Assembly (NCBI RefSeq): GCF_003313335.1
Contig: NZ_QMHP01000007.1
Span: 62,001 to 126,000, forward strand
From: Pedobacter zeaxanthinifaciens
GTDB lineage: Bacteria > Bacteroidota > Bacteroidia > Sphingobacteriales > Sphingobacteriaceae
Direction of reading: 5' to 3'
DNA length: 64,000 nt
Position 1 is the first letter of the stretch; each line of letters starts with the position of its first letter. Shown here in pieces: positions 2,396-11,903 of the stretch. Both the position numbers and the translations under genes were made by a program. Under the pieces are notes generated by a model. It had not been told where the DNA came from. It saw nothing but the letters and a program-made list of their open reading frames with translations, and did no database searches.

Positions 2396-2641
2396 ATGAC
2401 AAGCACCAAGAACACCATTAAGCTGCATGAGGCAATCGCTATTATTCTTCTGAACCTCCCAGGAAGACGTGCCTCGTTTGACACGATAGCAACTGAGATC
2501 GAAAAGAGAAACCTTTTCCCCAACAGGGCTGGTAATATCCCGCTTGCCAAACAGATTAAGCTGCGTAGTGCAATCAAGTCGAGCAGATACCTAAACACCT
2601 GGTTTGAGATAGCCTCCAACACGGAAATAAGATTAATTTAA
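2396..2641 (+). CDS. HARE-HTH-like small DNA-binding protein
   Basis: An 81-residue protein. The frame is open from ATG 2342, but ATG 2396 is preferred because AAAAAGGA lies just upstream and the compact domain starts there. It reads as a winged-helix HARE-HTH-type domain: an opening helix (LHEAIAIILL), a Gly-Arg-Arg turn, an 'SFDTIATEIEKRNLF' recognition helix, then a basic segment and an aromatic wing (YLNTWFEI). HARE-HTH domains are known from restriction and chromatin proteins and are thought to sense modified or damaged DNA. It is 9 bp upstream of the next gene and probably co-transcribed with it and the large ATPase. It may be a regulator or a DNA-sensing subunit; that is inference. Confidence 0.6.
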   Translation: MTSTKNTIKLHEAIAIILLNLPGRRASFDTIATEIEKRNLFPNRAGNIPLAKQIKLRSAIKSSRYLNTWFEIASNTEIRLI

Positions 2642-2650
2642 GCACCATTT

Positions 2651-3061
2651 ATGAGTATACCTAAACATTTAAGCCATAAACCAATCATAGGCGTTGACAA
2701 TTACGACAAAATAGACAGCTTCTATGTCGGCAATACAGACGTTGAAGCACTTTCAATAGGCAATGCACAATATGACCATGATGAAATCTCTCTTAAAGTT
2801 TGGAGACGAGTTAGCAACAGGTGGAGCAGACAGAGCGAGGAGCTTCCTATCCATAGGAATCTAGATTTGAACATATTATTTCTTGCCGCACTACTTACTG
2901 ATGTCAAATCCAATTATCCAAAATCTAGCTTGAGAGAAGAAATTGTAAATGAACAAAGGGTAGAAGAAATTAGGGACTATTATGAGAAAAATGAAAATAA
3001 GCTGAGGCCAAGACTTTTGGAACTCAAGAAAATACTCGACCAATTTCTATCATTAACCTAA
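2651..3061 (+). CDS. Small protein of unknown function (DUF6530-like)
   Basis: A 136-residue soluble protein, with no signal peptide or membrane segment. Features include an N-terminal HKPIIGVDNYDK segment, an 'LSIGNAQYD' stretch, 'VWRRVSNRWSRQSEELPIHR', a hydrophobic helix around residues 73-85, and a charged helical C-terminus. The layout recalls a small family I associate with DUF6530, but I am not certain of that. It starts 9 bp after the HTH gene and ends 11 bp before the 811-aa ATPase, so the three genes form one plus-strand operon. Its constant position beside a GHKL ATPase would make it a cofactor or inhibitor candidate. No enzyme motif is visible. Confidence 0.6.
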   Translation: MSIPKHLSHKPIIGVDNYDKIDSFYVGNTDVEALSIGNAQYDHDEISLKVWRRVSNRWSRQSEELPIHRNLDLNILFLAALLTDVKSNYPKSSLREEIVNEQRVEEIRDYYEKNENKLRPRLLELKKILDQFLSLT

Positions 3062-3072
3062 TCTGCTCTAAC

Positions 3073-5508
3073 ATGACTTCTCAAGAACTTTTCTTTTTAT
3101 TATTCAATTGCCATACCGAAGATGAACTAGAAAAAGTCATAAGCTCGAACACAGACCTATTCCAATCTTCCAACTGGCATCCGCTTGGAGGCAATGAAAA
3201 CAACTATGGTGTCATAGAAAACCAGCAGGCTTCTCCCATTGCCGCCCTAATCGAGAAAATTACCAATTCGGTGGACGCCACTTTGATGAAGAAATGTTAT
3301 GAGGCCAGTATTGATCCAGTTTCTGAAGAGGCTCCTAAAACCATGGAACAGGCAAGAACGATATTTTTCCCCAAGTACAGGGATTGGGATTTGACAAGCC
3401 ATAGAAAAGCGCAGGCTAAGGAAATACAGATACTGGCAGATGGACCAAGGGGCAACACATCTCTTACCATCTATGATAATGGGGAAGGGCAGCATCCTGA
3501 AAATTTTGAAACCTCATTCCTATCCCTGCTTCGCGGCAACAAAAATGAAATCCAGTTCGTTCAGGGAAAATATAACATGGGCGGAAGCGGTGCGATTGTT
3601 TTCTGTGGAAAGAAAGGGTATCAACTGATTGCCTCACGAAGATTTGACAAAACCGGAGATTTTGGTTTCACGCTGACTAGACAACATCCACTAACAAAAG
3701 AAGAGCAGGGCAGAAAGAAAAACACTTGGTACGAATTTTTAAAGCTTGAAGGAAAAATCCCCTCTTTTGCCATAGATAAATTAAACCTTGGTCTCCATGA
3801 GACTTGGTTTGAAACGGGCAGTATACTCAAACTATATTCTTACGACCTTCCCTCCGGAAGCCGTTCGGTAATCTCCAGAGACCTCAATCAAAGTATCAAT
3901 GAGTACCTTTTTGAACCCGCACTACCAGTACTCACTGTTGACCGCTTGTATCGCTATCCCGATGACAGGAACTTGGAAAGAGATCTCTTCGGATTGAAGA
4001 GACGCCTCGAAGGTGACGACAACAAATATATCGAAGACTATTTTTCTGAAGATTATCACGAACAGGAGATTGGGAAATTCAAGGTCACCTGTTACGTATT
4101 CAATACCAAAATAGATGATAAAAATGTAAAAGAGACGAAGGAATCTATCCAAAGGGAATTCTTCAAAAACAATATGTCTGTCGTTTTCTCCATGAACGGG
4201 CAAGTACACGGTCATTTCACCTCCGAATTCATTTCAAGATCGTTGAAATTTACACTGTTGAGGCACCATCTTCTTATTCATGTAGACTGTACACACATGG
4301 AATATGATTTTAGAAAAGATCTCTTTATGGCTTCTAGGGATAGGCTGAAAGAAGGCGACCACACCACCAAGCTACGTAAATTCCTTACTTCAAAATTAGG
4401 CGGCACCAAAGGCAGGCTTGCCGAGATAGAAAAACGTAGACGAGATACCATATCCGTCGATTCCAAAAATACCCAGGAGATGCTGAAATCTTTCTCCAAG
4501 AATCTTCCAATGGATAGCAACCTGATGAAGCTGCTCAACCAAGCCTTTAAGCTAGACATCAAAGACGACAAGCCTAAAAAGAAGCCTGATGTACATAAAA
4601 CAAAGAAAATAGAGCAGGAGGCTTTCAGACCACAACGTTTCCCCTCTTTTCTCAAAGTGAAATCACCGTCGGACGGTGGTAGAAAGTGTATCAACCTACC
4701 AAGAGGGCAGGAAAAGACTATCCATTTCAAGACAGACGTAGAAAACCACTATTTTGATCGAGTAGAAGAGCCGGGAGAGTTCACCATTGGGCTGGTAAGT
4801 TATACTGCAAAAGAAAATCAAAATACCGGTGGGGATAAAGCTGGTGTAGAGGAACAGATAGAGGATGTATTTAACATCAATACCTCCAGTCCTCATGATG
4901 GTACCATCCGTCTAAACCTAACCACCAATAATGAAGTGAAGGTTGGTGACGAGATTGAACTGAAAGCCACACTGACTGGCCCTGGAGAAGATTTGGAGGA
5001 ACTATTCTGGGTAAAGATTGTAGACCCAGAAGCCAAGAAAGAGACCACCAAAAAAGAAGAAGAAGCAGAAGAAGACAACATCGGACTTCCCCCATTTGTA
5101 TTAGTTTACAAGGAAAAAAAGGATGATTACTCCACTTGGGATGAAGTAGAAGAAGGTCTGGATGACAAAGTCGACTACGACGTGGTCATGATTCCACAGG
5201 TGAGCGGAGATAATGTGGATAAAATAGTAATTAACATGGACAGCCATGTACTCAAAAACTTTAAATCCAACTGTAAAAGTCAGGATCAGCTGGAAATCGC
5301 AGACAAAAAATACATCTCCTCGGTATACTTCCACACCTTGTTCCTGTATACTATTACCAAGAACAGAAAATATACCATCTACCAGACAAAAGAACACGAA
5401 GAAGAAGTGGATTTGGGAATTTATCTGAAAGACCTATTTTCTAGTTTTTACTCAGAATTTATCCTCAACTTCGGAACTAACGATTTGTTACAAATGGTAG
5501 GTGAATGA
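3073..5508 (+). CDS. GHKL (Hsp90/MutL-type) ATPase, probable defence protein
   Basis: An 811-residue protein with a Bergerat-fold ATPase domain at about residues 40-230. The N box is EKITNSVDA (61-69, with N65 and D68), the G1 box is DNGEG (135-139), and the G2 glycine-rich lid is GKYNMGGSGA (165-174). No histidine-kinase dimerisation/phosphoacceptor helix or receiver domain is present, so it is not a sensor kinase. Residues 230-430 look like a transducer-type second domain. A Lys-rich linker (~510-530) leads to a C-terminal region of unknown fold with a Lys/Glu-rich patch near 655-675. GHKL ATPases of this kind without kinase parts occur in MORC/MutL-like proteins and several anti-phage systems. 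It is the last gene of a three-gene operon that converges on the Ssp-like operon at a shared terminator (5632-5669). Confidence 0.75.
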   Translation: MTSQELFFLLFNCHTEDELEKVISSNTDLFQSSNWHPLGGNENNYGVIENQQASPIAALIEKITNSVDATLMKKCYEASIDPVSEEAPKTMEQARTIFFPKYRDWDLTSHRKAQAKEIQILADGPRGNTSLTIYDNGEGQHPENFETSFLSLLRGNKNEIQFVQGKYNMGGSGAIVFCGKKGYQLIASRRFDKTGDFGFTLTRQHPLTKEEQGRKKNTWYEFLKLEGKIPSFAIDKLNLGLHETWFETGSILKLYSYDLPSGSRSVISRDLNQSINEYLFEPALPVLTVDRLYRYPDDRNLERDLFGLKRRLEGDDNKYIEDYFSEDYHEQEIGKFKVTCYVFNTKIDDKNVKETKESIQREFFKNNMSVVFSMNGQVHGHFTSEFISRSLKFTLLRHHLLIHVDCTHMEYDFRKDLFMASRDRLKEGDHTTKLRKFLTSKLGGTKGRLAEIEKRRRDTISVDSKNTQEMLKSFSKNLPMDSNLMKLLNQAFKLDIKDDKPKKKPDVHKTKKIEQEAFRPQRFPSFLKVKSPSDGGRKCINLPRGQEKTIHFKTDVENHYFDRVEEPGEFTIGLVSYTAKENQNTGGDKAGVEEQIEDVFNINTSSPHDGTIRLNLTTNNEVKVGDEIELKATLTGPGEDLEELFWVKIVDPEAKKETTKKEEEAEEDNIGLPPFVLVYKEKKDDYSTWDEVEEGLDDKVDYDVVMIPQVSGDNVDKIVINMDSHVLKNFKSNCKSQDQLEIADKKYISSVYFHTLFLYTITKNRKYTIYQTKEHEEEVDLGIYLKDLFSSFYSEFILNFGTNDLLQMVGE

Positions 5509-5676: not shown

Positions 5677-6699
5677 CTACAATAATAATTTTGCATCTAA
5701 AACTTGTAATCTCCTATCGATATTGGTCTTAATGGCCCCGTCTTTGTTAAAGGCATTTATATACTTATACAGTTCAGGATCAAAACTTCCACCATCTTTA
5801 TCTAATAAAATTTGAGGTTTACTTGTATGATTTTTACGGTCATCTTCAAATTTCTTAAAACTAGCTGAAAGATTTTTAACATTAATCTTCTCTCCCTTTT
5901 CTATTTTTTTAGAAATAAAATTCATTACATCAACAAATGCCCATTTATTCCTAAAGTAGCCAGGTATTTGAGCATTTACCTTGTTTAATATATCTAAGCT
6001 GGCTTTCAATTTAGCGACTAATTCTTTAACTTCATCAACAGCATCTTCCTCACTAAGTTGCACATATAATTCGCTCATAGCTTTTGCTTTCAAGTCCTTA
6101 TTGTTTTGGTAAAAAAATAAAGCAGCCGCGTGATCCAAGTATTCTTGATGCTTAAATCTTTTATCTACAATTTTTGAAGAAGCAAAAAATGGATTTGAAA
6201 GAAGTTTCTTTAATTCAGCACCTAAAATACTAGGGATGGCGTTCCTTAACTCAGCCGGATTTAATATTACACCTTGTTGCAGTCTTGCAAACAATTCATT
6301 TATTTCCGGCTCGGTTGCATCATAAATTTCGGAAAAGGAAAGCTCAAAATTTAAAATGATGTCACGAATTTCTTGTGATAATTCAGAAAATGTCAAACCA
6401 TTTAATTTAACATCACCAATTTTAGTCTCTCCTAGTTTATAAATATTATCGACAAAATCCCAAATAGCACGCATACGTTGCTGCCCATCAGTCACTTCAA
6501 AAATATAACCAGAAGGATGATCTTCAAATCTCCTTAAATAAAATTTAGGAAGATCAAAACCTTTAATAATAGAGTCAACTAGTTTTTGTTTTCTTGACAA
6601 AGTCCAAACTTCAGTCCGTTGGTACTGAGGCTTAGGATTTATTGATTTTCTTTCATCAACTAAATCTTGGATTCGCCAAGTTAAATTTTGTTTTTTCAT
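5677..6699 (-). CDS. DUF262-only protein, putative SspE-like sensor/effector
   Basis: A 340-residue protein with a ParB/sulfiredoxin-like DUF262 domain: 'YQRTEVWTLSRKQKLVDSII' near residues 26-45, the nucleotide-binding DGQQR motif near residue 72, and 'FARLQQGVILNPAELRNA' in the middle. SspE of Ssp systems and GmrSD enzymes pair DUF262 with a DUF1524 HNH nuclease; here the C-terminal ~160 residues show no His-Asn-His signature, so the nuclease half seems absent. DndB, the dnd regulator, carries a related DGQHR motif, so a regulatory role is an alternative. It begins 3 bp after the PAPS-reductase gene stop and is the last gene of that operon. It is clearly more AT-rich than the three genes before it, which suggests it was acquired separately or swapped in. 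Confidence 0.8.
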   Translation of the reverse strand: MKKQNLTWRIQDLVDERKSINPKPQYQRTEVWTLSRKQKLVDSIIKGFDLPKFYLRRFEDHPSGYIFEVTDGQQRMRAIWDFVDNIYKLGETKIGDVKLNGLTFSELSQEIRDIILNFELSFSEIYDATEPEINELFARLQQGVILNPAELRNAIPSILGAELKKLLSNPFFASSKIVDKRFKHQEYLDHAAALFFYQNNKDLKAKAMSELYVQLSEEDAVDEVKELVAKLKASLDILNKVNAQIPGYFRNKWAFVDVMNFISKKIEKGEKINVKNLSASFKKFEDDRKNHTSKPQILLDKDGGSFDPELYKYINAFNKDGAIKTNIDRRLQVLDAKLLL

Positions 6700-6702
6700 A
6701 TT

Positions 6703-7809
6703 CTATACAAAGCAAGCTAAACAACCGTCTTCCTCTGCGTCTAAAATATCAATCAATTTGTTAGAGCGATAGTTTCGAGCAGCGTTTTGTTGTTTGGTTA
6801 AAAATTCTTTTTTTATTTGTTTAATACGTTCTGGGTTAATCAATTCTTCCAATCGTTCATCCTGCATCCAAGTATAACCATCCTTTTCATATTCCATTGC
6901 CAAAAAGAACTTAGCGGGGTTCTGTTCATAGAGCCATACCCATTCAATTTTTCGTTGAAAAAAGCAGAAAAAGCATCCCGAGCGGCTACGGTTATATTTT
7001 CCCTGTTTGCCGTTGACCTCATAGGGAATTTCTTCGTAATAAGCAGGAACCCCAACTCCGCTTTCACGCAATATCCTAAAAATATCATCACGGACCAATA
7101 TAGACTCATTATCCAATAATGGAAAATTGTCCACCAAAGCAATAGGCAACTGACTATTCTTTAAACTTTGGAATGTAGCATGGTTAAATTCCTTGATGCC
7201 CAGCCCCAGTAGCGCTTTTAGCTTTTGATTCTGGGTATAGCCCATACGCAGAGGAGTTTTGATAATATCTACCGCTCTTTGGTAAAGGTTTTTGGTCAAA
7301 AGCCCCTTGTATAAATCCAATAGCTGTTTTTGGTTATCAGCAGCCAATACCTTACCTACGACCTCTTCGCTCCAAATATTTTCCCTGAAAGGGAAAATCG
7401 ATTGCACATGGGGCTTGGTAGAAATATAGCCTTCCCGATCCTCATCACCACGGATTCCGACATAGGAAATCACCGGGGTATCACCTATATAATTCTCGAA
7501 AGGTTCAATCTTAAGCTTTTGTGTACACCAGCGGGCATTGGACGAAGGCAGATAGCCGCCAAATAACTGATGATAAAAATCAAATGGGTTATCTTGGTCG
7601 GCCTTCTTAGCATCGAGCTTCTTGATAGTCACCCCAAGTTTTGACTCCAAATTATCGATCAATTGGTAGGTTTCATCCAATTCCTTGCCTGTATCGCACG
7701 TATAGAACTCTATATCCATTTGAGGATATAGCTCCTTCATGTAAATGGCCAGTGCAGCACTGTCCTTACCTCCAGAAATACCTAACACATGTCTGACACT
7801 ATTCTTCAT
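6703..7809 (-). CDS. sspD: PAPS-reductase/ATP-pyrophosphatase family, SspD/DndC-like
   Basis: A 368-residue member of the PAPS reductase family. The PP-loop SGGKDS is at residues 12-17. Cysteines at C38, C95 (RWCTQK), C279/C282 (SGCFFC) and C363/C366 (GCLAC, at the extreme C-terminus) could hold an iron-sulfur cluster, as in DndC. In Dnd and Ssp systems this enzyme activates the DNA backbone phosphate with ATP so that sulfur can be inserted, making phosphorothioate DNA. Its start overlaps the upstream ATPase gene by 11 bp and its stop is 3 bp before the DUF262 gene, so the operon is tightly coupled. A plain assimilatory sulfate reductase is unlikely: no sulfate-assimilation genes are nearby and the partners fit DNA modification. 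Confidence 0.85.
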   Translation of the reverse strand: MKNSVRHVLGISGGKDSAALAIYMKELYPQMDIEFYTCDTGKELDETYQLIDNLESKLGVTIKKLDAKKADQDNPFDFYHQLFGGYLPSSNARWCTQKLKIEPFENYIGDTPVISYVGIRGDEDREGYISTKPHVQSIFPFRENIWSEEVVGKVLAADNQKQLLDLYKGLLTKNLYQRAVDIIKTPLRMGYTQNQKLKALLGLGIKEFNHATFQSLKNSQLPIALVDNFPLLDNESILVRDDIFRILRESGVGVPAYYEEIPYEVNGKQGKYNRSRSGCFFCFFQRKIEWVWLYEQNPAKFFLAMEYEKDGYTWMQDERLEELINPERIKQIKKEFLTKQQNAARNYRSNKLIDILDAEEDGCLACFV

Positions 7810-10800
7810 TTTCCAATGTCTGCTTCAACAGTTTAGCTAATATAGCAATTTTTGTATTTCTATTCTCTGTTTCCATCATACCGGACAATCCGGCTTCCAA
7901 CTGTTGAAAGTTGGGGTCTGCATTTCTAGGCAAACGCACAATCCGCTGGTTCACGGTACTTCCTGGAGCAGTTAGTTCAAATTTGAACACTTCTTCCTGT
8001 TCCAGATTAATATTCTGCATGGCCATGTCATTCAAATTGTCAAGCTCATGTATCAGGTTCAAGAAACGCTCCTGTAACTGGTCGACCTCCTTATCCGTAA
8101 TCTGATCCAACGTCTTGCCCACGGTAGCCTGCGCTACGGAAGAAAGCCAAGCAGCCCTATCATCCAAGGGCGAGCATAGTCGATCATAAAAGGTTTTCTG
8201 ATAGGGCAGCAACAGGTATTGTTTCAAGGCACCTTGGTAACGTTGGCGCAATTGCGCCTTATAATCGGCAAAAGCGTTATTGTTATTCCATAAAGAATTG
8301 ATGATCCCCTCAAACCTGCTCAATAATTCTTCGTAAGCGTTTCGTAGCTCTCTGATAGCCTCCTGAAGATCTATACTGAATTGCTTCAATAATTCTGGAT
8401 TATTGCTGAGCTGTATCAAGTCATATCCCAAACCACTGGGCAAATCCTCAAAAAAAAGCTTCTCTGGTTCCGTTGCATCTGTCAAGGCCTTCCTCACCAA
8501 CTGTGCCTTTCTGCTTACATTCCTGGTCTGTTTAACATAGGGCTTTAAGTCCCTGTAAAACTTAAAGAACGGAATGATAGTTTTGATAAAGGTCTCATTG
8601 GAGGTTCTATTTGTTTCAGTAAGCGACAATAAGTCGCGATATTGATTGAACAGACGTACTTTGATCCCATCGGTATCGAATGCCTTGATACTGTACTGAT
8701 GCGGATTTTTGACCAACAGCTCCAACACCTCCGTATCGATTTCTGGAATAAAGCCATTTTGTCCATACAGCGCAAAACTATCTGTTTTCATCAAGAGATA
8801 GATGGGAATCCAGCAGTCCAAAAAGCCTTTTTTCAATTTAAATGGCGCCAGTTGAAGATGTTCATAAAACTCTGATACGGTACGCCTTGCACCCACGGTG
8901 GTTTCGATAAAAGCCTGACAAGCCACAAACAATGGCCTAAAGGCATACTCATCTTCCTCATCCTCGGCAATCTCCCTCAAGATCCATCCTTCCTCCGTCA
9001 GACGATGTATGCCCGTCTCCCTAAGTAAAGAAAGATAGATTGCCCTTTGCGGTGGAAAACCGGTAATACCAAGTCCCTCTTCATTTTCATGATTGATGAT
9101 CGCCTCCAACAATGCTTTACGGGCAGTTGAAATCGCAACAGAAAGCTTTGTACGGTTAGCCAACTCACTCTTGAATATCGGTGTTGACGGATAAACCTCG
9201 TCCACAATATTAGAAAGGAAAGAATTCAGTTCCCTACTATTTTCAAAAGTGATATTTCTTCCCGCGTAATACCAACGAACAGATTCCGGATCATAAAAGC
9301 CCTCATAAAGAAAATAATTGAGCAGACTTTTCTGGATGTCTATAATCGCGCCCAACTCTCTTTGGATAATCTTGTCCGAAGCGTATTTTGCCCTTGCGAT
9401 TTCCGCCTTCTCGATTTCTTCGATACAATGTCGTATATCATCAACCCTTAAGAAGTGGGCGTAGATTACCGCTTGGTTCTGTGATGCCGATTCCCTAAGG
9501 ATGCCAGCTGCCGTAACGTTAGGACTGAAGACTAGGTTAATATACCCATCTACCTGACCACTAGGTTGTGATGCTCTGTAAAGGTCATCCGTAATCTTAT
9601 ATTCAAATACTCTTGGTGTACCTCTTTCGTAATAGGCCCGTTTTGCCGAAACTGGAGCCAACGGTAAATAGCCATTTAGGAAACCCACAATATTGTTTGC
9701 CCTGCTAATTTCCTGACCAGCCTCGTTTATCGCATCCTCAATATTTACCAGGGTGGTTTCAGAGTAGAAAAAGCGGCGGGAATACCTATTATAACCCAAT
9801 AGGTTTCTTTTCTCCAAATTTTCGATGGCCTGACCTACGCCCCTAAGTTTTGAAGTAAGCTCAATATAGGCGACGATAAAGTCTTTATCCAACTTGGCGC
9901 CAGCATGACTGAAAATATTGAGCAGACCAATGGTCTTGATCAAGGTGCTGTAAAGCATATGCTCTTTATCCTCTACTTCACCTTCCACCCGCTCAAGGGC
10001 ATTCTTGATTTCCGCCCACTTGGTATGATGGATATTCGACTTAGAGCCTAGAAATGAATAGAGATTGTAGCTAAGGTAATCGTAGATATTAGCGACACCG
10101 TAGAAATTTTGACGTTCAGCATCAAATTCATCGAGGCCATAGAAACTATCCGTATTCAAAAAGGTAAAGAGCGAACGCTCATTTTGGCCATATTGTTGCA
10201 GTGCAAGTGCCAATACGCTTCCAGACAATAAGTCCAATGGCCAGATTTTCTTGGCCATTTCTTCCTCAAAGTAATCCCTTAGGGGAAAGGCATTGGACTT
10301 TCCGATGATGTCTATCAATTGCCTTATATGGCCGATATTCTCTTTTTGTGGCCTTCCCTCAACTACACGACTGGCCAAAAGCAAGAGCTGTTCCACAGGT
10401 TCATTAAAGGTAAGCTCTTTAAAACGTCCCTTAACTTTGGTCCACTCATTCCGTTGGGTGGCATTCAACGATATCGCATATGCGGAAAAATCCTGATGCA
10501 GCGTGGTAATAAACGCGACCTCATGACCAGCATTGTTGACCAATTCCGCTATCTGCTGCAAAAAGTAAAGTTCCTTTTCCGCGCTATGACGTGAAGCATA
10601 TTCTAGAAACTTCCCGAATTCGTCGATCAGGAAGATAAAGCCCCTTCCTTTGGCATTAGCTTCTACAATCCTAGTTTCCAGCGCCTGCACAATAATAGAG
10701 GGTTTCATCTTCGAAACACCTATAATTTCAGCGACGCTATCAATGACAGAATCATAGCTTCCGACCAATTTCAATATCTCAAAGCTTGAAAAGCGCATCC

Positions 10801-11032
10801 AGTCCTCACGTTCCACGAATACCTTTTCTTCGTTGACATGATAGGCCAGAGCATTAAGAAAAGTCGATTTACCAGTGCCATAGGCACCAATCAGATTGAA
10901 CGACCTTATACCTGCAACATAACTCCTGATGAGCGAATCAAATACCTCCTGTGCATTCGGGGTAACGATATAATCCGCTACCTCAAAGTTGTTCAGCAGT
11001 ATATTTTGGGATGGAGAAAAATGTTTAACCAT
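7799..11032 (-). CDS. sspC: Large P-loop ATPase, SspC-like
   Basis: A 1077-residue ATPase. Walker A GAYGTGKST is at residues 49-57 and Walker B IFLIDE at 133-138, followed by FGKFLEY and a sensor-like 'FITTLHQD'. The remaining ~850 residues are helical and contain few recognisable motifs. In Ssp systems SspC is the ATPase that works with SspB and SspD in single-strand phosphorothioation. It overlaps the DUF4007 gene by 8 bp and the PAPS-reductase gene by 11 bp, so the three are translationally coupled. BREX-type ATPases (BrxC/PglY) are also large, but the flanking DUF4007 and PAPS-reductase genes and the lack of PglZ or a methylase argue for Ssp. Confidence 0.8.
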   Translation of the reverse strand: MVKHFSPSQNILLNNFEVADYIVTPNAQEVFDSLIRSYVAGIRSFNLIGAYGTGKSTFLNALAYHVNEEKVFVEREDWMRFSSFEILKLVGSYDSVIDSVAEIIGVSKMKPSIIVQALETRIVEANAKGRGFIFLIDEFGKFLEYASRHSAEKELYFLQQIAELVNNAGHEVAFITTLHQDFSAYAISLNATQRNEWTKVKGRFKELTFNEPVEQLLLLASRVVEGRPQKENIGHIRQLIDIIGKSNAFPLRDYFEEEMAKKIWPLDLLSGSVLALALQQYGQNERSLFTFLNTDSFYGLDEFDAERQNFYGVANIYDYLSYNLYSFLGSKSNIHHTKWAEIKNALERVEGEVEDKEHMLYSTLIKTIGLLNIFSHAGAKLDKDFIVAYIELTSKLRGVGQAIENLEKRNLLGYNRYSRRFFYSETTLVNIEDAINEAGQEISRANNIVGFLNGYLPLAPVSAKRAYYERGTPRVFEYKITDDLYRASQPSGQVDGYINLVFSPNVTAAGILRESASQNQAVIYAHFLRVDDIRHCIEEIEKAEIARAKYASDKIIQRELGAIIDIQKSLLNYFLYEGFYDPESVRWYYAGRNITFENSRELNSFLSNIVDEVYPSTPIFKSELANRTKLSVAISTARKALLEAIINHENEEGLGITGFPPQRAIYLSLLRETGIHRLTEEGWILREIAEDEEDEYAFRPLFVACQAFIETTVGARRTVSEFYEHLQLAPFKLKKGFLDCWIPIYLLMKTDSFALYGQNGFIPEIDTEVLELLVKNPHQYSIKAFDTDGIKVRLFNQYRDLLSLTETNRTSNETFIKTIIPFFKFYRDLKPYVKQTRNVSRKAQLVRKALTDATEPEKLFFEDLPSGLGYDLIQLSNNPELLKQFSIDLQEAIRELRNAYEELLSRFEGIINSLWNNNNAFADYKAQLRQRYQGALKQYLLLPYQKTFYDRLCSPLDDRAAWLSSVAQATVGKTLDQITDKEVDQLQERFLNLIHELDNLNDMAMQNINLEQEEVFKFELTAPGSTVNQRIVRLPRNADPNFQQLEAGLSGMMETENRNTKIAILAKLLKQTLENEE

Positions 11033-11903
11033 TATAGTATCCTTCTAAAAATATGTCTTTTTCCAGTTCCTGCCGAATCTGTAGCACCCTATTCCCGGCA
11101 GTTTCATTATATACAAATTGCGTAGGAAACGCTTGGGCCAACTCGATCAGTTTGTCCTCCAGGCCCTTTTCGGTGATACAAAAAACATTCCCTGGGGAAT
11201 TTATACCTTCCAATAAGTCCTTGAATGCAATAGTACCTACCTGACCTCCATAAACATCTACAATCACATAGGCCAAAATGGCCAATGGAAGTTCTGTCCT
11301 GTTTCCCCTAACTACGCGAAACCATTGTACGATGTTCTTGCCTTCCGTATCCAGTTTACTGAACGGACGGACCAGGTTCAGTTCAATCAACAGATTAGCA
11401 GTCTCCTCTTCTACATCAGTCTTACCATCATCTGCACGATTATAAGTTCGCAGGAAAACATTCGCATCAGCATCATAGGTCTTATCACTAAAATGCTTTA
11501 GCCCTGCCTCTTCTGTCTTACGCTTCAGGAAAGCAATCAGTTGAGGTTTGGTAAACTCGTTCTTCTCTTTCAGAAACTGGTTAAAAAAACTATTGAAAAT
11601 AAAAACCCGCTGATTTTTGATGATCGAATAATGTAGTAACCAGAGGCTGGCCGTGTCTTCCAGATATGGATCGGCACCAGCCAATAGAAAGTGGCCAAAT
11701 TCTGTCAACTGGTCCGCTTCATCGATAATATTAAAGCCCCTTAACCAAAACTTGATCGAGGTGGTCATGTTCTTTCCAACCCCCAGATGTACAACGGCGT
11801 CTTCGTCGGAGAAGGAACGTTCAGCAATTAAATGCTCATATCCCTTCTTCAGCCAAAATTGCCTACAAACAAACGTCTCATGACCACTAAAACCTATTTT
11901 CAT
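11025..11903 (-). CDS. sspB: DUF4007 protein, SspB-like
   Basis: A 292-residue protein with the DUF4007 hallmark N-terminus 'FSGHETFVCRQFWLKKGYEH' (residues 4-23), followed by a mostly helical body. SspB, the DNA-nicking component of the SspABCD phosphorothioation system, belongs to this family. First gene of the operon, with an ATG start at 11903. No sspA (cysteine desulfurase, the sulfur donor enzyme) is present here or elsewhere in the window; a chromosomal IscS-type enzyme could serve. Two TATCCACATTT repeats lie just upstream (11911-11921 and 11956-11966). Confidence 0.8.
   Translation of the reverse strand: MKIGFSGHETFVCRQFWLKKGYEHLIAERSFSDEDAVVHLGVGKNMTTSIKFWLRGFNIIDEADQLTEFGHFLLAGADPYLEDTASLWLLHYSIIKNQRVFIFNSFFNQFLKEKNEFTKPQLIAFLKRKTEEAGLKHFSDKTYDADANVFLRTYNRADDGKTDVEEETANLLIELNLVRPFSKLDTEGKNIVQWFRVVRGNRTELPLAILAYVIVDVYGGQVGTIAFKDLLEGINSPGNVFCITEKGLEDKLIELAQAFPTQFVYNETAGNRVLQIRQELEKDIFLEGYYNG

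Follow-up and report, generated by a model that had tools for sequence, protein, structure and literature searches.

A GHKL ATPase adjoining the phosphorothioate writers SspBCD as a candidate restriction core

Three closely spaced genes on the plus strand of Pedobacter zeaxanthinifaciens (2396–2641, 2651–3061 and 3073–5508, with intergenic gaps of 9 and 11 bases) raise the question of what the large ATPase of the GHKL type encoded by the third of them is for. Positions refer to a stretch of 64,000 nucleotides (contig NZ_QMHP01000007.1, positions 62,001 to 126,000) which is called the window here. A first-pass annotation, which had placed the three open reading frames correctly, took them for a trio of a GHKL ATPase, a HARE-HTH protein and a small partner protein which could detect phosphorothioate (PT) or phage DNA and trigger an ATP-driven response. 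The results described below point to a different arrangement: the ATPase is probably the restriction core of a PT defence system which has its writer, SspBCD, in the adjoining genes, and a probability of about 0.6 is assigned to this reading. The tie of the ATPase to PT DNA and defence is thus supported, for a reason other than the one given in the annotation, namely because SspB, SspC and SspD adjoin the GHKL gene here and in nearly every homologue examined. The self-contained trio is not supported, because the two small genes are present in only 2 of 84 loci.

Linkage to the phosphorothioate writers

The GHKL gene (3073–5508, plus strand; Pfam HATPase_c_3, E 4.6e-6) encodes 811 amino acids and is convergent with the gene of a DUF262 protein, 168 bases separating the two stop-codon ends. 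Beyond the latter lie, all on the strand opposite to GHKL and recognised with PADLOC models, the genes for SspD, a PAPS-reductase-like sulfur transferase (6703–7809, minus strand; PDLC02782, E 2.5e-88, in two stretches), SspC, an AAA+ ATPase (7799–11032, minus strand; PDLC02776, 1155 bits), and SspB, a DUF4007 DNA-binding protein (11025–11903, minus strand; PF13182, E 1.1e-70; PDLC02760, E 6.2e-88). These three are the writers of DNA PT in Ssp systems. An IscS-like gene for the role of SspA was not found in the first 20 kilobases (kb) of the window, the part of this genome which was searched; such a gene occurs in 25 of the 84 loci introduced below. Homologues of SspB, SspC and SspD are also found in type 4 BREX, where according to the relevant part of PMC12839542 BrxC, PAPS reductase and DUF4007 homologues are used. 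That the window carries such a locus is scarcely credible and was rejected: the Ssp models far outscore those of BrxC and BrxP (230 bits for the best BrxC model on the SspC protein), and in five genomes with the GHKL gene the sole match to PglZ is not linked to the writer genes but lies on another contig (G000, G385) or at least about 130 kb away.

Relatives of the GHKL protein were scanned in bacterial and archaeal genomes and the best 80 of 237, with 51–84% identity over the best segment, were kept. They span Bacteroidota, Poribacteria, Alpha- and Gammaproteobacteria, Campylobacterales, Acidobacteria, Gemmatimonadota, Anaerolineae, Aminicenantes, Calditrichaeota, Ignavibacteria, and others. 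Together with three plasmid homologues (45–60% identity) and the window they make up the 84 loci; the plasmid matches H4–H8, the viral loci L146 and L147 and the survey loci L120–L144 were set apart before this count. The physical link to SspBCD is near-invariant, with SspC and SspD in 78 of the 84 loci and SspB in 72. In the six loci without SspC and SspD (L016, L033, L034, L039, L047, L085) a contig end lies 0–2 kb from GHKL on at least one side. SspC-like matches were found in 67 plasmid records, three of which are those with the close GHKL homologues.

The same link was seen in two surveys of genomes which had not been chosen by similarity to GHKL. Among 395 Bacteroidota genomes SspD was found in 21 at a cut of E below 1e-40 (in 85 if the cut is loosened to 1e-3). 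The five intact genes of the core GHKL family, defined by a score of over 1200 bits, all share their contig with SspD at a distance of at most 3 kb (Fisher p 2.6e-7). Four weaker or broken matches, G267, G103, G171 and G255, had been set apart; the p value becomes 5.1e-6 if G267, whose gene is broken, and G103, a relative scoring 712 bits, are counted as misses. SspD matches in G103 and G171 (about 360 bits) are no better than E 4e-4, and G255 (about 350 bits) has none. In G267 (locus L140) the GHKL gene contains five in-frame stops and lies less than 1 kb from a contig end. Its region also contains SspB and an SspC of reduced length, and is probably a decaying copy of an Ssp-GHKL system. The second survey comprised 84 genomes of the group of locus L028 (Poribacteria), with SspD in 51 genomes at 55 places and GHKL in 11 genomes at 14 places. 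Eleven of these 14 places are within 3.1 kb of SspD; the other three begin at contig positions 18–184, one of them being incomplete, and two genomes carry two linked GHKL-SspD pairs each. Over both surveys together, SspD is no more than 3.1 kb away from each of the 16 GHKL genes which are intact and evaluable. Counted from the side of SspD, GHKL stands at 5 of 21 sites in the Bacteroidota and at 11 of 55 in the L028 group. The L028 group, with SspD in 51 of its 84 genomes, seems unusually rich in PT writers.

Phage records yielded no GHKL relative at E up to 1e-5, and viral contigs gave two loci. On one viral contig of 50 kb (L146:8382–12433 and L152:635–5841) SspBCD stands at one end and a DndB-like gene with GHKL at the other, on the same strand and with genes between them which appear phage-like by eye; this looks like a prophage inserted in an Ssp-GHKL island. 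The other (L147:10001–12421) contains a GHKL relative of 36% identity on a viral contig of 597 kb in which no DUF4007 was found, and is possibly a copy carried by a huge phage.

Upstream of GHKL lie the two small genes. The first (2396–2641, plus strand) encodes an accessory protein of 81 amino acids which is helix-turn-helix (HTH)-like by eye only. The HARE-HTH label given to it earlier could not be upheld, as this protein and its one relative, in L041 (Pedobacter frigiditerrae), match no Pfam family at E up to 10, although HMMER filters can drop weak matches; among plasmid records the HTH protein has no match. The second gene of the presumed trio (2651–3061, plus strand) encodes a DUF6530 protein of 136 amino acids (PF20140, E 1.2e-31), likewise accessory and a candidate effector or regulator of this version of the locus. 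Among 296 Bacteroidota genomes that of the window is the only one with DUF6530, which also occurs in 109 plasmid records, 30 of which were listed. A sensor composed of HTH, DUF6530 and GHKL proteins and independent of the adjoining genes would fit the tight same-strand spacing seen in the window and in L041, the only two of the 84 loci with the small gene pair. This occurrence in 2 loci, against 78 for SspC and SspD, led to rejection of the trio as a unit; with the HARE-HTH match missing and DUF6530 standing without an annotated GHKL partner in three plasmid regions examined, it is very improbable. No constant partner of DUF6530 was seen in the regions examined, and it was discarded as a clue to function. 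Numerous small plasmids of enterobacteria carry the family, and in Moraxella it lies close to a viperin gene (L148:6001–6405, L149, L150).

The ATPase and its predicted fold

The ATP-binding boxes had been described as complete, N65 and D135 included, and alignment of 61 homologues bears this out. The N box (residues 61–69, 3253–3279) contains E61-x3-N65-x2-D68, the G1 box (residues 135–139, 3475–3489) D135-x-G-x-G139, and the G2 box or ATP lid (residues 164–173, 3562–3591) Q164-G-K-Y-N-M-G-G-x-G173, all on the plus strand. The named residues are identical in all 61 homologues, and position 172 in 52 of them. E61 is presumably the general base, as in other GHKL ATPases. It had also been noted that kinase parts are missing, and in Pfam HATPase_c_3 was indeed matched without any phosphoacceptor (DHp/HisKA) or kinase family. 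No family of PADLOC or NCBIfam matches the protein at E up to 1, and the PDB contains no match by sequence to the protein or its profile, again at E up to 1.

An AlphaFold2 model calculated from the alignment of 61 rows reached a mean predicted local distance difference test score (pLDDT) of 77.9 and a predicted template modelling score (pTM) of 0.75. In this model a Bergerat fold is followed by an S5-like domain. Residues 40–458 resemble the ATP-bound N and middle domains of Hsp90 (6xlg: Z 15.9, root-mean-square deviation (rmsd) 4.4, 298 aligned residues; VIA-align 2) and MORC3 (5ix2: Z 13.4, rmsd 4.0, 300 aligned), and SMCHD1 is the top rank in Foldseek. Although the ATP-bound forms of Hsp90 are its best structural matches, the protein ends differently, in an immunoglobulin (Ig)-like beta sandwich and an alpha/beta end without assigned fold (residues 515–811, 4615–5505, plus strand). 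Folded separately, this C-terminal part gave a pTM of 0.45, its Ig-like region being matched weakly (best Z 8.9, rmsd 2.6, 97 residues). No nuclease was found among the 50 structural matches listed for residues 515–811, a result which does not exclude one.

GHKL and S5-like domains as well as neighbourhoods of DNA modification are shared with the MORC and paraMORC ATPases (Iyer 2008, PMC2292703). The window protein differs from these in that the MORC motif GhXhhpXXRhl of the S5 domain is found in none of the 61 homologues, and that Pfam gives no match, at E up to 1, to the C-terminal DUF4263 nuclease of paraMORC3 and of Shedu proteins of the type with a GHKL domain. The paraMORC ATPases have been tied to restriction-modification, and sections 4 and 5 of PMC2292703 mention no PT systems. 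A GHKL ATPase likewise acts in phage defence in VcSduA, a Shedu protein with a GHKL domain; this protein differs in having a PD-(D/E)xK nuclease of its own, and the relevant part of PMC12137116 mentions no PT writer.

Other large cores and exchanged modules

SspE, SspFGH and PbeABCD are published partners of PT writers. As stated in PMC8092258, Wang and co-workers in 2021 counted 2,678 sspBCD loci, of which 2,211, and thus most, are without SspE or SspFGH, and asked about further restriction partners. At the 21 SspD sites of the Bacteroidota survey GHKL was found 5 times, PbeA with an AAA ATPase 6 times, a helicase with a HATPase and a PLD-like protein 6 times, and an SspG/DndH-like set once; one site is unassigned and two have no core. 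Two large cores never occur at one of these 21 sites at the score cut used. The core names come from a PADLOC scan of one example each. For PbeA this is clear (1111 bits), while its AAA partner fits LmuB (2e-19) better than PbeC (2e-15); in the helicase type the helicase resembles PbeA weakly (1e-22), the HATPase MzaB (6e-16) and the PLD-like protein ZacB (3e-10), and proteins of L125 match SspG (8e-22) and DndH/SspH (2e-30 and 3e-17). Counting relied on profiles made from up to four of these very loci, whose own matches are thus by construction. None of the 84 GHKL loci is matched by the PbeC, PLD, SspF, SspG or SspH profiles. As a proposed large core combined with a PT writer GHKL resembles SspFGH and PbeABCD, and genes similar to theirs are present at SspD sites without GHKL. 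It differs from them in its Bergerat-fold ATPase without recognised nuclease, where SspFGH is described with Walker A and FtsK-like proteins (PMC8092258) and PbeABCD with helicase/HKD and ABC ATPase proteins (PMC10853773).

Two of these sets were noted in their own right. SspBCD with a helicase, a different HATPase and a PLD-like protein (L120, L122, L129, L137, L138, L139) forms another candidate Ssp restriction core. PbeA with an AAA ATPase (LmuB or PbeC in PADLOC) occurs within SspBCD-bearing regions of 15–20 kb (L127, L128, L131, L132, L134, L135); PbeABCD has been described with Dnd genes.

Between the constant GHKL and SspBCD genes, or beside them, lies a third module which is exchanged freely. 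In the 84 loci, some of which carry two modules, DUF262 is accompanied by a protein kinase in 12, by SIR2 in 9, by HEPN in 2 and by DUF6530 in 2; DndB-like genes occur in 25 (most also with a GIY-YIG-like gene), HEF_HK-like genes in 12, a second HATPase in 11, SspE in 3, Mrr-like genes in 3, Septu-like pairs in 2, and others. The c7 GIY-YIG-like and Response_reg_2-like proteins have no Pfam match and HEF_HK is just below the cut-off, so that these names rest partly on eye and position. HEF_HK/Response_reg_2 pairs have been tied to restriction-modification in PMC8011034, the relevant part of which does not mention PT systems. A tree of 82 GHKL proteins requires no fewer than 26 changes of module class (72 classed rows, one module per locus chosen by a preset ranking) and no fewer than 10 changes of the effector beside DUF262 (26 rows). 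The GHKL proteins of L079 and L081 are almost identical, whereas the modules of these two loci differ.

GHKL could also be thought of as a mere accessory layer itself, with an unseen gene as the true restriction core, since other proteins of the GHKL type (HEF_HK-like, HATPase) serve as accessory modules of these islands and no nuclease was recognised in GHKL. This is improbable, as apart from SspBCD no gene cluster occurs in half of the loci, the largest being found in 28, and as L046, L077 and L088 contain SspBCD and GHKL with no recognised module at all. In addition, HEF_HK-like and DndB-like modules also stand beside the PbeA core (L127, L128, L134, L135), whereas GHKL stands with no other core at the 21 sites.

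Covariation separates the constant from the exchanged genes. In the 63 loci left after removal of incomplete and up to seven near-identical ones, GHKL distances correlate with those of SspC (rho 0.64), SspB (0.55) and SspD (0.45), each exceeding all 999 permutations. They do not follow the accessory DndB (rho -0.09, 25 loci) or DUF262 proteins (0.09, 28 loci), and in the 28 DUF262 loci GHKL still tracks SspC (0.47). The GHKL-SspBCD core seems to be inherited as one and the module exchanged. The covariation with SspC, together with the Hsp90-like N and middle fold of the model and the lack of a recognised nuclease, would also suit a place on the writer side, where an Hsp90-like protein would help to assemble SspBCD or regulate it and so set the amount of PT, with no role in restriction. 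Against such a role, which is rather unlikely, speaks that GHKL is missing from most SspD-positive genomes (16 of 21 in Bacteroidota, 41 of 51 in the L028 group) and occupies the slot of other large cores, and that Vibrio IscS-SspBCD gave PT in E. coli, with no such gene mentioned in the pertinent part of PMC8092258.

The DUF262 (GmrSD_N) protein of the window (5677–6699, minus strand; 340 amino acids) has the motifs PxYQ and DGQQR; among the 28 DUF262 proteins of the loci DG[QR]QR is found in 28, DGQQR in 26 and PxYQ in 26. PxYQ may be general to DUF262 proteins, and is for this reason not diagnostic of SspE. In SspE and DndI the DUF262 domain is described as sensing PT via a pocket with the PxYQ tyrosine and as hydrolysing nucleoside triphosphates (NTP) with DGQQR (PMC13251355, PMC11662687). 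The window protein is probably a PT reader and NTPase, and a likelier reader than the trio. What the locus has in common with SspABCD-SspE are the writer genes and a DUF262 domain with both motifs. It differs in that only GmrSD_N passed the cut-off in the DUF262 protein, with no C-terminal HNH/DUF1524 nuclease matched, and in the added GHKL ATPase. The best PADLOC model of this protein is NsnA, not SspE, and no PDB match by sequence was obtained at the cut-off used. The genome of the window as a whole is without any match to the SspE model PDLC02786, and SspE, SspF, SspG and SspH are not among the nine window proteins scanned with PADLOC.

Several observations weigh against GHKL as a restriction core of Ssp systems. 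No nuclease domain was recognised in it by Pfam or structure searches. The sample consists of the best 80 of 237 relatives, eight of which (L050–L057) are closely related. Five plasmid homologues (H4–H8, at most 31% identity, of eight plasmid matches) are without SspBCD in their flanks; the distant relative L141, likewise without SspBCD, adjoins genes which by eye are methylase- and restriction-like, and near the distant relatives L142 and L143 neither SspBCD nor methylase- or restriction-like genes were noticed. Exclusion between cores is not absolute, because GHKL coexists in a few of the 84 loci with an SspE homologue (three) or with matches to the PbeA and helicase profiles (one each), and of the 21 SspD sites two are without any core and one is unassigned. 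In the L028 group co-occurrence at the genome level (SspD in 10 of 11 GHKL genomes) says little, because SspD is so common there, the short distance being the evidence. Lastly, covariation is partly a deep split, because within 42 loci with the long SspD type rho falls to 0.44 for SspC, 0.39 for SspB and 0.25 for SspD, values calculated with no permutations.

Outside the Ssp loci a cytosine methylase gene stands beside a distant relative in L141:8832–15104, with methylase-like and restriction-like genes by eye, and in L008:9131–25407, where the set is haloarchaeal, includes helicase and PLD proteins and is DISARM-like by annotation. The wider GHKL family may serve other DNA marks too. In the window itself, mobilisation-like genes start near 12.7 kb (by eye), and at 395–1597 on the minus strand two adjoining open reading frames in different frames, with weak HEAT and DUF4888 matches, are possibly one broken gene.

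A possible mechanism and its meaning

If GHKL is the restriction core, SspBCD, with a cysteine desulfurase as SspA, would mark the host DNA with sulfur, and GHKL, as an ATP-driven homodimer clamp built like the N and middle domains of Hsp90 and like MORC, would engage DNA. An accessory protein with a DGQxR motif, here the DUF262 protein, would read the PT mark and so distinguish self from non-self. Closure of the clamp on unmarked DNA might then block the invader directly or activate the swappable effector, which elsewhere would be SIR2, a kinase, HEPN, GIY-YIG, Mrr or a Septu-like pair, and in the window perhaps DUF6530 together with the HTH protein; here the clamp may also act alone. Writer, reader, ATP-driven clamp and effector would in this split design be placed on separate chains. 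MORC2 is described as a DNA clamp which compacts DNA with ATP (PMC12216690), which by analogy makes clamping plausible for the GHKL core. A more daring version, doubtful though worth stating, would do without a cutter: the Hsp90/MORC-like clamp would sense missing sulfur marks and entrap or condense the invading DNA, so that replication and transcription stop on uncleaved DNA, with SIR2, kinase, HEPN, GIY-YIG and DUF6530 as back-ups reading the state of the clamp.

Among the open-access matches listed, which were judged by titles and starts of abstracts (most subscription papers and bioRxiv preprints being outside this scope), no paper links a GHKL ATPase to SspBCD. For GHKL combined with phosphorothioate and defense the matches listed contained the VcSduA paper only, and they contained nothing naming DUF6530 and nothing joining phosphorothioate, SspBCD and SIR2. 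The terms GHKL, MORC and Hsp90 are absent from the main text of the comparative papers PMC10853773 and PMC12839542.

This ATPase is real and conserved, and probably a so far unrecognised restriction core of Ssp PT systems. The family, which no PADLOC model matches at E up to 1, is a concrete candidate for a further restriction partner at 5 of 21 and 11 of 55 SspD sites. The islands show a plug-in logic, in which writer and core are constant and reader and effector modules are exchanged. If this is right, some systems now called orphan PT modification would become testable defences, and GHKL clamps would gain a role in bacteria which is guided by a DNA mark. If the cutter-free clamp is true, prokaryotes would have their own counterpart to MORC silencing, under the guidance of a mark on DNA.

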